21,474 nucleotides of DNA from a virus, in IMG/VR virus record IMGVR_UViG_3300046836_000330, positions 1 through 21,474 of that record, one strand, 5' to 3'. The notes below the pieces were generated by a model. That model saw only the letters and a program-made list of their open reading frames with translations, was not told the DNA's origin and did not search any database. Below, piece after piece: positions 6,960 through 16,567 of the stretch (position 1 is its first letter; every line of letters starts with the position of its first letter). The translations under genes and the position numbers were made by a program.

Positions 6960-7979
6960 ATGGCGAAACGCGAACCACGGGCGCCGGCGAGGGCGCACGG
7001 TGAACTGACACACGTCTCTCACATCTCACTGCCCGGCGTCAGCGACGACGAGGCCTTCGTCGCGCAGGCCGGCAAAAGCGTCATCACCTTCCTGCGCGAG
7101 CTCGCCGGCTTCTTCACGACCGCCCAGGCGCTCGAGAGCGAGGCCCTCGCGAAGCTCGACGCCGCGAAGAGCTGGCAGGCGCCGAAAACATCCGACGACG
7201 ATCTCTTCATTCAGGAGCAGATCAAGGACGCGAACACGATCCGCAAGCAGATCCTCGAGCACTGGAAAATCACGAGCCTGGTCAGCCAGTTCCATAAGCG
7301 CCTGACCGGCCGGCGCGACAAAGGCGCCGACGCTGCCGAAGAGATCGCGACCATCGGCAACCGGCTACACAACGGCTGGACCGTCGAGCAGAAGGAAAAA
7401 GTGCGGCGCCAGGAAGAGAGCGAGCGGCTGCAGCGCGAGCTCGACGCGCAGGCCGCCCGCGACCGCGAGCTGCAAGCAATGGAACTGAAGGCGCTCGCGG
7501 CCGAAGAGGGCTCGCCGGATCTCAGCGAGCGCGAGAGCCGCTTCGTCGATCTCGTCTTCGGCGATCTCAACAGCCCGACGACCGCCGCCCGGCACGTCGG
7601 CTTCAAGGATCCCGCCCTGCAGGCCGAGCGGCTGATGAAGAGCCCGAAGATCCAGGCCGCGATCGAGGCGCGTCGCACGGCCCAGGCGATTCGCAAGCAG
7701 CGCGAGGCCCGCGCCGCCGCGCCGCTCGTGGTCGAAGCGATCACGCCGATGAAGCCTGACATCCAGCGGGCCGCCGGCGCGAGCGAGCGCACGACCTACA
7801 GCCTCGAGGTCGTCGACGAGGCCGCCTTCATCGAGGCCGCCTTCTCGGGCCGCTACGGCATCCCGCACGACCTCTTCACCGTGAAGCCGGCGAAGGGCAA
7901 CGAATACGCGCGCAGCATGCGCGAACTCGTCAACCGCTGGCCGGGCTGCCGGCTGGTCACGAAAACGGGCGTCATCTGA
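6960..7979 (+). CDS. Long coiled-coil phage protein with internal TerS-like helical segment
   Basis: 339 residues, first gene after promoter 2, with GGAGG at 6949-6953. Three parts are visible. Residues about 40-180 are charged helix and coiled coil (including ALAKLDAAKSW and the Arg/Glu-rich stretch at 140-175). Residues about 185-240 (LSERESRFVDLVFGDLNSPT, then AARHVGFKDPALQAERLMKS) look like the helix-turn-helix unit of small terminase subunits. The C-terminus (about 275-339), with YSLEVVDEAAFIEAA and a terminal WPGCRLVTKTGVI, matches the tail of a common phage recombination/replication-associated family whose role is not known. The real terS is at 16568, so this segment is probably a DNA-binding module in an early protein. 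Confidence 0.65.
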   Translation: MAKREPRAPARAHGELTHVSHISLPGVSDDEAFVAQAGKSVITFLRELAGFFTTAQALESEALAKLDAAKSWQAPKTSDDDLFIQEQIKDANTIRKQILEHWKITSLVSQFHKRLTGRRDKGADAAEEIATIGNRLHNGWTVEQKEKVRRQEESERLQRELDAQAARDRELQAMELKALAAEEGSPDLSERESRFVDLVFGDLNSPTTAARHVGFKDPALQAERLMKSPKIQAAIEARRTAQAIRKQREARAAAPLVVEAITPMKPDIQRAAGASERTTYSLEVVDEAAFIEAAFSGRYGIPHDLFTVKPAKGNEYARSMRELVNRWPGCRLVTKTGVI

Positions 7980-8226: not shown

Positions 8227-8516
8227 TCGTCGGGATGGGCGACAACGCGACGCTCGTGATCGCCATCACGGCGGCCGACCTGGCGCACCTGCAGTCGGGC
8301 CAGGTCGGCACAGAACACGCCGAGACCCTCGCCTACGAAGGCGCGACGCCGCTCGGCCTCGTCCAGAATGTGATCCTGCTCTACGCGGCAGACCGCGAGC
8401 AGCTCATCAAGATCTTCACCGACGCCGGCGTCGACGCGAGCTCGCGCACGATCCACGACTGGAAGGGCAAAGTGCGCCGTGACGAACGCACCGACCGCCC
8501 GAAGAAACCGAGCTGA
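8223..8516 (+). CDS. Hypothetical phage protein
   Basis: 97 residues from ATG 8223 (ATGA overlap). The N-terminal half has beta-like hydrophobic alternation (ATLVIAITAADLAHL); the middle is helical (GLVQNVILLYAADREQLIKI) and the C-terminus is basic (WKGKVRRDERTDRPKKPS), perhaps for nucleic-acid contact. No family is named with confidence. Confidence 0.6.
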   Translation: MIVGMGDNATLVIAITAADLAHLQSGQVGTEHAETLAYEGATPLGLVQNVILLYAADREQLIKIFTDAGVDASSRTIHDWKGKVRRDERTDRPKKPS

Positions 8517-8518
8517 TC

Positions 8519-8755
8519 ATGTGGATGCTGCTGACACCCAGGGAAGCCGAGGCCGTGCAGGGCGCGTCGGCCAAAGGCGCGAACGGCGCCGCCCTCGCGA
8601 TGGTCAAGGGCAAGCTGCGCCCGATGGGCCCTGACACCGAGCTCGACCTCACGCTCGACGAGCTCCTGGCCGTGCGCGAGGCCGCCTATAACTGGGCCGA
8701 CGGCGGCGAGAAAGCCTTCCGGGCCATCCTGGCCGCCCGCGATCGGCACCGATGA
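8519..8755 (+). CDS. Hypothetical small helical protein
   Basis: 78 residues from ATG 8519, two bases after the preceding stop and without a clear ribosome-binding site, so it probably depends on upstream translation. Contains LTPREAEAVQ and a C-terminal helix (ELLAVREAAYNWADGGEKAF). Unrecognised. It is the last gene before the 227-base non-coding region. Confidence 0.6.
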   Translation: MWMLLTPREAEAVQGASAKGANGAALAMVKGKLRPMGPDTELDLTLDELLAVREAAYNWADGGEKAFRAILAARDRHR

Positions 8756-8982
8756 CCGGAGTTTTCCACAGGGGCACTTGTTGATAACTTGTGCACGCGC
8801 CCGCCTCGGCCAACGCCCTCGAGTTATGCACAGCTTTCAACAGGTCGCCTGTGCAAAACTCGAGGCGGCAACCCGCGCCAGGTCAGCGAGATGACCCGCC
8901 GAGCGGCAGATTTCCGCAGGATCCGCAGGCCTTACTCTTCTCTTCTTCAACCCATTTGAAAGAGAAAGGGAGATCAGGAGCC
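8756..8982. other. 227-base intergenic region
   Basis: No convincing gene starts here; a frame open from 8791 has no ribosome-binding site and reads a low-quality Pro/Ser-rich peptide. Besides the DnaA-box cluster it holds a tandem TCCGCAGG repeat (8913-8920 and 8922-8929) and, near 8933-8973, a long imperfect hairpin (TTCAA/TTGAA core with pyrimidine and purine flanks) that would partly cover the ribosome-binding purines of the next gene. Confidence 0.6.
8762..8864. other. Candidate replication origin: DnaA-box cluster with 16-bp inverted repeat
   Basis: Three sites fit the DnaA-box consensus TTWTNCACA exactly: TTTTCCACA (8762-8770, +), TTATGCACA (8824-8832, +) and TTTTGCACA (8850-8858, -). 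TTATCAACA (8779-8787, -) has one mismatch to TTATCCACA. The last two exact boxes sit inside an inverted repeat, CTCGAGTTATGCACAG (8818-8833) and CTGTGCAAAACTCGAG (8849-8864), 15 of 16 paired, with a 15-base loop. The region is non-coding and less GC-rich than its surroundings. TTGTTGATAAC (8778-8788) also differs from the operator core TTGTTGACAAC by one base. Confidence 0.55.
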
Positions 8983-9204
8983 GTGCCAGTCTTCTATCGC
9001 GTGTGGCGGATCCCAGGCCGGCAGGCGCTCTGCCGCAACTGTAAAAAGCCGATCCGGTGGGTCTACCTGGACAACGGCAAGAAGCTGCCGCTCGAGCCGA
9101 GGGCCATGCCGATTCGCCTCGAGCAGTCGACGAGCGGCGCCCGCTTCGAGGTCTACGACGGCGAGGCCTCGCACCTTTGGCACTGCCCGAAAAAACCCGC
9201 TTGA
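8983..9204 (+). CDS. C2HC zinc-ribbon-like small protein
   Basis: 73 residues from GTG 8983; AAAGGGAGA at 8966-8974 is at a workable distance, while AGGAG at 8976 is too close. CRNC (residues 17-20), then PIRWVYLDNGKKLPLEP, and near the end SHLWHCP give a Cys-x2-Cys ... His-x3-Cys pattern. The same layout (C..C, PI.W, GK, SH...CP) is found in the gene at 12968, so the two look like distant paralogues. Such small zinc ribbons are common in phages and have no known function. Confidence 0.6.
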   Translation: MPVFYRVWRIPGRQALCRNCKKPIRWVYLDNGKKLPLEPRAMPIRLEQSTSGARFEVYDGEASHLWHCPKKPA

Positions 9205-9243
9205 TCTTCGTGCACTTGTGAGCAACAATCCCCGCTTCCCGCC

Positions 9244-10032
9244 ATGAGCAACGTCTCGCGAGGCGCCTACTACAAAGCTCGCACGCGCAAGTGGCTGGCC
9301 GCCGGCGGCTGGCAGGTCGTCGACCTCGAGGTCGTGCGATGGGTCGGCGGCGAGAAACGCTTCCCCGTCAAGCGCGACCAGATGGGCAGCGACTTGCTCG
9401 CGGTCAGCGGCCGGCGGATCGTCTTCATCCAGGTCAAGAGCGGCGCGACCGTCGGCGGCACGTTCCCCGCCGCGCGCCGCGAGTTCGACAAGTTCACCTT
9501 CCCGCCGTTCGCCGGCCGGCTCGTGCTGGCCTGGGCGCATGGCGCCTCGAGCCCTCGCATCGTCAACATGGCAGTCACCCAGGAGCCGCCGCATGCCGAA
9601 GACCATCAAGGAACAGATCGACCAGATCTTCACGTATCACTCGCCGGTCGGCGATCAACCGCAACGCTACGAGACCATCCGAACGGCGGCGAGGGAGTTC
9701 GCGCACATCCTCGTCGACAACACGCCGCCGAGCGCCGACCAGACGGCCGCGATCCGGCTGCTGCGCGAGTGCGTGATGACCGCCAACGCCTCGATCGCGC
9801 TCGAGAACGAGCCCAAGTAAGCCCACGTCAGACACCGAAGGAGATCCCCGATGGCAAAGAGAAAGCGCGGCACACCGTCCAGGGCAGCCGCCAAGAGCAC
9901 GCGCGAGAAGACCGGCACCCGAAAGAAGCGCGGCGAGTCGCCGGCACCCGTCGGGCCGCGACAGCGCACGCTGCCGACGATGCAGCAAGTGCGGCACGTC
10001 TACCTCGATCGGCGCACGGCGCGCGTCGCTGA
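9244..10032 (+). CDS. Hjc-like PD-(D/E)XK nuclease with unusual read-through tail
   Basis: The N-terminal 115 residues look like a small Holliday-junction-resolvase/restriction-type nuclease: SRGAYYKARTRKWLAAGGW, then GSDLLAV with Asp50 and IVFIQVKSG with Gln63 and Lys65 (Gln in the place of the usual Glu, a known variant). Homologous phage proteins end at about this length. Here no stop follows: the frame stays open for about 147 more codons, across all of the Acb2 gene and 180 bases of the next, reading an Arg-rich low-complexity peptide. Either the natural stop was lost, or there is a frameshift near 9570-9600. No clear ribosome-binding site precedes ATG 9244. Confidence 0.55.
   Translation: MSNVSRGAYYKARTRKWLAAGGWQVVDLEVVRWVGGEKRFPVKRDQMGSDLLAVSGRRIVFIQVKSGATVGGTFPAARREFDKFTFPPFAGRLVLAWAHGASSPRIVNMAVTQEPPHAEDHQGTDRPDLHVSLAGRRSTATLRDHPNGGEGVRAHPRRQHAAERRPDGRDPAAARVRDDRQRLDRARERAQVSPRQTPKEIPDGKEKARHTVQGSRQEHAREDRHPKEARRVAGTRRAATAHAADDAASAARLPRSAHGARR
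9593..9820 (+). CDS. acb2: Acb2-family cyclic-oligonucleotide sponge (anti-CBASS)
   Basis: 75 residues from ATG 9593, with AGGAG at 9581-9585. The order FTYHSP, DQPQRYETIRTAAREFA, NTPPSADQTAAIRLL and ECVMTANASIALENE matches the pattern I know for Acb2/Tad1-like hairpin proteins (FxYHxP, RYxxIRxAAxxFA, CPxSxExxxAxxxLxxAVMWANAAIAxNE). Acb2 proteins are small helical oligomers that bind cyclic di- and trinucleotides made by CBASS (and related) defence enzymes, preventing effector activation. Deviations from the usual form are Asn-Thr instead of Cys before Pro-Pro and Thr instead of Trp in VMTAN. The gene lies wholly inside the read-through tail of the Hjc-like ORF, in another frame, so translation may be coupled to it. 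Confidence 0.8.
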   Translation: MPKTIKEQIDQIFTYHSPVGDQPQRYETIRTAAREFAHILVDNTPPSADQTAAIRLLRECVMTANASIALENEPK

Positions 10033-16556: not shown

Positions 16557-16567
16557 CAACCGCACTT

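Follow-up and report, generated by a model that had tools for sequence, protein, structure and literature searches.

A DnaA-box cluster that alternates with a helicase module in a podovirus-like phage family: a putative replication origin for host DnaA

The intergenic interval between positions 8756 and 8982 of the window, the whole 21,474-bp virus record analysed here, is probably a phage replication origin opened by host DnaA. It holds a cluster of DnaA boxes with an AT-rich stretch beside it, and the same element stands at the same position in three relatives (G011, G014 and G015), where it is exchanged with the helicase module of other related phages.

The phage and its DnaA-box cluster

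The window is a fragment of a soil-type, podovirus-like phage. It includes the last part of a large virion protein, all of the early region, the two terminases and the first part of the portal gene. The large terminase shares 46% identity with those of Xanthomonas phages CP2/SAC; named phages gave no near-DNA matches, and a scan with the gene at 6960–7976 returned zero relatives. The early genes include a Mgm101-type annealing protein, an exonuclease and an MT-A70 methyltransferase. Family searches of the 21,474 bp recognised no helicase, primase, polymerase or initiator, which agrees with the sequence-only reading, and they found no Rep-type family in the window or in G015. A near-identical contig (L002/L013) begins downstream of the box cluster and is, therefore, uninformative on it.

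The features of the interval are compiled in Table 1. Exact TTWTNCACA sites occur across the 21,474 bp only at 8762 (+), 8824 (+) and 8850 (−), with 0.06 expected for the whole window from dinucleotide shuffles and three boxes reached in 0 of 100 shuffles. Three exact boxes and one near-match had been described within 97 bases of non-coding DNA; the span of 8762–8858 confirms this, except that the near-match is better assigned to TTATCAACA on the minus strand (8779–8787) than to TTGTGCACG at 8789–8797. The element is also larger than first noted, with a rightward extension at 8910–8971 that carries it to about 8971. No iteron array was found in 8500–9300, and the interval thus lacks the iterons with a cognate Rep gene of an iteron plasmid-type origin. 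The downstream gene starts at about 8983, preceded by a ribosome-binding site.

Table 1. Features in and around the proposed origin (window coordinates)
Feature	Position	Strand	Remarks
Upstream marker gene g8519	8519–8755	+	Function unassigned; homologues flag the same interval in relatives
Intergenic region, proposed DnaA-dependent origin	8756–8982		Upstream ORF stop at 8755, downstream gene start at ~8983; box clusters in the homologous interval of G011, G014, G015
Predicted DnaA box TTTTCCACA	8762–8770	+	Exact TTWTNCACA
DnaA-like box TTATCAACA	8779–8787	−	1 mismatch to TTATCCACA
Weak near-match TTGTGCACG	8789–8797	+	2 mismatches to TTWTNCACA; may be chance
Inverted repeat, left arm	8817–8833	+	94% complementary to 8849–8865
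Predicted DnaA box TTATGCACA	8824–8832	+	Exact TTWTNCACA
Inverted repeat, right arm	8849–8865	−	Pairs with 8817–8833
Predicted DnaA box TTTTGCACA, opposed to the 8824 box	8850–8858	−	Exact TTWTNCACA
Pair of degenerate proximal boxes in tandem, ATTTCCGCA GGATCCGCA	8910–8927	+	Weak alone (2–3 mismatches); exact boxes at the aligned place in G011, G014, G015
Pyrimidine tract CTTACTCTTCTCTTCTTC, DnaA-trio-like (complement of 3'-GAN-5')	8931–8948	+	4 consecutive [CT]TN triplets at 8937–8948
Candidate DNA unwinding element	8932–8971		AT 0.63, top 40 bp of window
Downstream marker gene g8983, DUF6083-like	8983–9204	+	Weak Pfam PF19561 match; homologue in G011

The distal boxes of DnaA origins work in either orientation with helical phasing (PMC6669920), and the BUS of bacterial origins consists of a box, a spacer of 0–16 bp and DnaA-trios (PMC8287927); a box with up to 2 mismatches at 0–16 bp from at least three trios was taken as the criterion. 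The corresponding layouts are TTTTCCACA-CGC-CTTCTACTCTTC in G011, TTTTCCACA followed after 12 bp by (CTT)5 in G014, and TTTTGCACA-TTTTCCACA-CGC-CTTACTCTC in G015. In G011 and G014 the BUS layout includes an exact box, past which the triplet tracts start at 3 and 12 bp, and G015 has no run of three triplets. Among 17 genomes, an exact box with at least three [CT]TN triplets within 16 bp is found in G011 and G014 only, at this interval. The window carries a degenerate version, ATTTCCGCA-GGATCCGCA-GGC-CTTACTCTTCTCTTCTTC, in which the proximal boxes have three mismatches to TTATCCACA and the first has two to TTTTCCACA; boxes and trios appear to fall short of the published BUS rule, which counts against the origin reading. 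In all four genomes the AT-richest segment comes directly after the boxes: it is the genome maximum in G014 and G015 and lies in the top 0.2% in G011, and no 40-bp segment of the window exceeds 8932–8971. An AT-rich candidate unwinding element thus lies beside the boxes in the window and likewise in its relatives.

Since DnaA is a known regulator (PMC11317965) and a gene follows the cluster, the operon from 8983 might instead be controlled by DnaA or by a phage repressor that recognises a similar site; promoter-like TTGACAACAA elements are found just downstream of the boxes in G014 and G015. Such transcriptional control is very unlikely, given that no promoter-like site was found within 8756–8982, that regulatory sites in E. 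coli favour pairs 2–3 bp apart, unlike the window layout, and that the helicase exchange would be left unexplained.

Several short motifs recur in the window. GTTGTTGACAACA, to which the TTGACAACAA elements are similar, has three exact copies (2195, 6909 and 13597; 0.07 expected when up to 2 mismatches are allowed). Every copy has TTGACA with a TAGACT/AAGACT −10 element at 17–18 bp. The copies are read as shared phage promoters, possibly with an operator. CACTTGTGAGYAA occurs at 9213, ahead of the 9244 gene, and at 16563, close to where the small terminase starts; it is resembled by GCACTTGTTGATAA at 8775, inside the box cluster.

Exchange with the helicase module among relatives

Methyltransferase scans retrieved about 20 relatives with the same genome plan, approximately eleven of them near-complete at 43–48 kb; complete genomes measure about 46 kb. 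One search detected DnaB_C in 6 of 13 records and the other in 13 of 18, several of the negative records being distant phages or short fragments. The gene order in DnaB-bearing relatives is annealing protein, exonuclease, superfamily-2 (SF2) helicase (ResIII/Helicase_C), a non-coding stretch, DnaB, a RuvC-like gene and the methyltransferase. The SF2 helicase is encoded in 13 records in which the interval is covered, 12 of which also encode DnaB. None of these 13 has a DnaA-box cluster; their near-boxes are scattered, and no 250-bp stretch holds more than two.

The window, G011, G014 and G015 are without SF2 and DnaB, and all have a box cluster and an AT-rich stretch in the same interval, which adjoins the homologues of g8519/g8983/g9244. 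The sites within 250 bp number four in the window, G011 and G015 and seven in G014 (near-matches included; exact boxes 2–3). The cluster is present in 4/4 genomes without SF2 vs 0/13 with it (Fisher p=0.0004), and in 4/5 without DnaB vs 0/12 with it (Fisher p 0.002), kinship being ignored in both comparisons. When genomes are sorted by DnaB, G004 is the one exception: it has kept SF2 together with the non-coding stretch, and has neither DnaB nor a box cluster. The sequence-only reading had raised the retention of the boxes in related phages, and this is true of the three relatives but not of the SF2-bearing ones. The box sequences differ among the four genomes, so the cluster has been kept while its letters changed. 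For this reason it is highly improbable that the boxes are neutral remnants or host-derived sequence without a role, even though the sites are few: four diverged genomes keep clusters of differing sequence in the same interval.

G015 carries an end repeat of 70 bp and is, therefore, read as a complete genome. In a scan of its 45 proteins, all the families recognised were structural, packaging, annealing, methyltransferase or acetyltransferase ones, with no helicase, primase or polymerase. None of the 14 genomes tested has DNA_pol_A or Bac_DnaA. The large terminase of G011 (L351) matches in several pieces in different frames, which suggests frameshifts or sequencing errors in the contig.

The boxes could alternatively act as a decoy: present several to each genome copy, they would titrate host DnaA and block chromosome initiation, while the phage would replicate by recombination with its Mgm101-type annealing protein. 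A titrating locus such as datA is itself a cluster of boxes, and the phage does encode an annealing protein and an exonuclease. We nevertheless regard a decoy as unlikely. Neither the triplet tract and AT-rich stretch that adjoin the boxes nor the alternation with the helicase module would be expected of it, and the SF2/DnaB-bearing relatives share the annealing protein and exonuclease yet are without boxes. The boxes might also belong to a DNA-entry or packaging signal, either a terminase recognition site or a stop signal like that for T5 injection, in which repeats, palindromes and DnaA boxes are described (PMC13250531). Convergent pairs do lie a few hundred bp upstream of the terminase in some unrelated viruses; here the cluster is about 8 kb from the terminase genes, inside the early region, and alternates with the helicase module, not with packaging genes, so that a signal of this kind is most improbable.

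In SF2-bearing relatives, the same interval contains a promoter-like ACATCT(N)GTGGCGTTGAT...TATAA, after which come about 400 nt of non-coding sequence that folds strongly (z −4.7 and −2.5); such regions are located at L357:6600-7080, L366:6625-7095, L007:1045-1540, L006:1170-1720, L370:6240-6730 and others. Rfam gave nothing in the window, L006 or L007 at the thresholds used. The structured region may be the origin of these relatives, possibly an RNA-based one, or an RNA gene, possibly for a new phage RNA.

One or two evolutionary events may underlie the box/helicase association. In the methyltransferase tree, the window with G011 and G014 with G015 fall in different parts, a single clade is rejected (p_AU 0.005) and two separate exchanges are required, whereas a four-gene concatenated tree allows a single event (p 0.11). 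Because the two trees disagree on a single clade, one or two exchanges, with phage mosaicism, are compatible with the data. Too few independent tree pairs were available for a sign test to reach significance.

A proposed initiation mechanism and its known counterparts

The sequence-only reading had proposed recruitment of host DnaA for replication. The relatives support this part of it well, since box clusters occur only where SF2 and DnaB are missing and have a BUS-like AT-rich neighbour; its cruciform part is not supported (see below). Boxes, AT-rich stretch, position and helicase-module exchange are direct observations; DnaA binding, melting, helicase loading and use of the interval as an origin during infection are what we infer. 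Host DnaA would bind the distal boxes (8762, 8779−, and 8824 with 8850−) and spread, probably via the weak proximal boxes at 8910–8927, polymerising onto the triplet tract at 8931–8948. The AT-rich stretch at 8932–8971 would then melt, and host DnaB, primase and polymerase III would be loaded, as the phage encodes none that is detectable. In the relatives, a phage module of SF2 helicase, structured RNA region and DnaB would do the same job in this part of the genome. GC skew, to which the sequence-only reading had also pointed, is a weak test in small one-directional phage genomes; it displays no switch at the cluster in the window, G011, G014 or G015, nor around the boxes in viral loci, and is uninformative here.

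A broader reading, which we put forward tentatively and hold to be somewhat doubtful, is that the replication start is a swappable cassette in this one podovirus family, consisting either of a phage module or of a minimal bacterial oriC for host DnaA, and exchanged at the same position at least twice. The phage module would comprise the SF2 helicase, the ~400-nt promoter-headed structured non-coding RNA region, which may be an RNA-based origin, and DnaB.

The proposed origin resembles bacterial oriC with a BUS (B. subtilis incC type; PMC6669920, PMC8287927) in its either-orientation distal boxes, proximal box or boxes, short GC spacer, triplet tract and AT-rich stretch, most clearly in G011 and G014. 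It differs in being phage-borne and about 200 bp long, with few boxes and no adjacent dnaA gene, and in the degeneracy of the window's proximal boxes and trios. Plasmid and phage-plasmid origins (P1 oriR, mini-F, pSC101) likewise have host DnaA boxes beside AT-rich DNA, but need a plasmid-encoded Rep and iterons, and the window differs in that no Rep or iteron array was found. Extrachromosomal mycobacterial prophages have RNA-based origins that use non-coding RNA (PMC7157519); the absence of a Rep protein and the dependence on host enzymes are shared, whereas the family members with DnaA boxes are without the structured region found in SF2/DnaB-bearing relatives.

Well-studied phages usually supply at least an initiator or a helicase loader. 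The BPP-1-like podoviruses BPP-1 and BcepC6B and the Xanthomonas phages CP2 and Olaya have capsid, portal and terminase genes related to those of the window. Unlike it, BPP-1 and BcepC6B have their own primase, polymerase and helicase and no DnaA boxes; CP2 has an annotated replication initiation protein and 0 boxes, and Olaya an annotated primosomal protein and one box. The more distant BPP-1, BcepC6B, phiM5 and AF all carry polymerases, primases or helicases of their own. Ori-Finder has predicted one phage origin with DnaA boxes; the phage concerned encodes a primase and a polymerase of its own (PMC11512268). The open-access literature searched describes no natural phage with a helicase-free DnaA origin.

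If the origin reading is correct, a phage without a detectable replication enzyme that carries a miniature oriC would provide a minimal model for extrachromosomal replicons driven by DnaA, its replication would be tied to host DnaA control, and initiation modules, self-made or borrowed from the host, would be exchangeable as a whole. The existence of relatives with and without phage helicases makes the idea directly testable.

Opposed box pairs in the window and in other viruses

Two of the boxes lie within the arms of an inverted repeat, as the sequence-only reading had noted, although the arms measure 17 nt with one A/A mismatch (16/17 paired; 15-nt spacer) instead of the 16 bp it gave. Folded as DNA, the repeat has a z of −5.3, and its arms reach several bp past the box. 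The proposed cruciform-capable structure is not supported: across 92 distinct viral convergent pairs, complementarity ends at the boxes, outer and inner flanks being at chance level, and selection for a cruciform or hairpin was rejected. Judged from these pairs, the symmetry in the window comes from two opposed predicted DnaA boxes. Nor are symmetric boxes unusual, as had been thought, since a scan of 2.9 million viral contigs with the pattern AGTTNTNCACAG..CTGTGNANAACT returned at least 119 stretches with opposed pairs; the same pattern reversed without complementing returned none from the viral contigs.

Divergent pairs (94) and direct pairs (at least 120) also occur in the viral contigs. 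Among the matches listed, spacing peaks at 12–15 and 24–27 in convergent pairs and at 8–11, 20–22 and 29 in direct pairs, and is flat in divergent ones. The window spacing of 15 lies inside the main convergent peak of other viruses. Because of the helical spacing and the lack of complementarity past the boxes, the pairs fit cooperative protein binding on one DNA face, not hairpins.

A general rule that box pairs mean no DnaB was rejected across unrelated viruses (10/42 vs 3–4/16). About 24% of the larger viral contigs with box pairs, among the matches listed, also encode DnaB, so the role of the pairs in viruses is not simply DnaB replacement. On the genomes compared, the link between boxes and a missing helicase is valid in the window's phage family, not across viruses at large.

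Opposed, helically phased pairs are distributed over about 30 sequence clusters of environmental viruses, among the matches listed (e.g. L049, L016 and L042). Seven matches to the same G-variant convergent pair were found in bacterial genomes. In the unrelated viruses L017, L023, L040 and L108, a convergent pair precedes, by about 400 bp, a terminase gene that is a distant relative of the window's.
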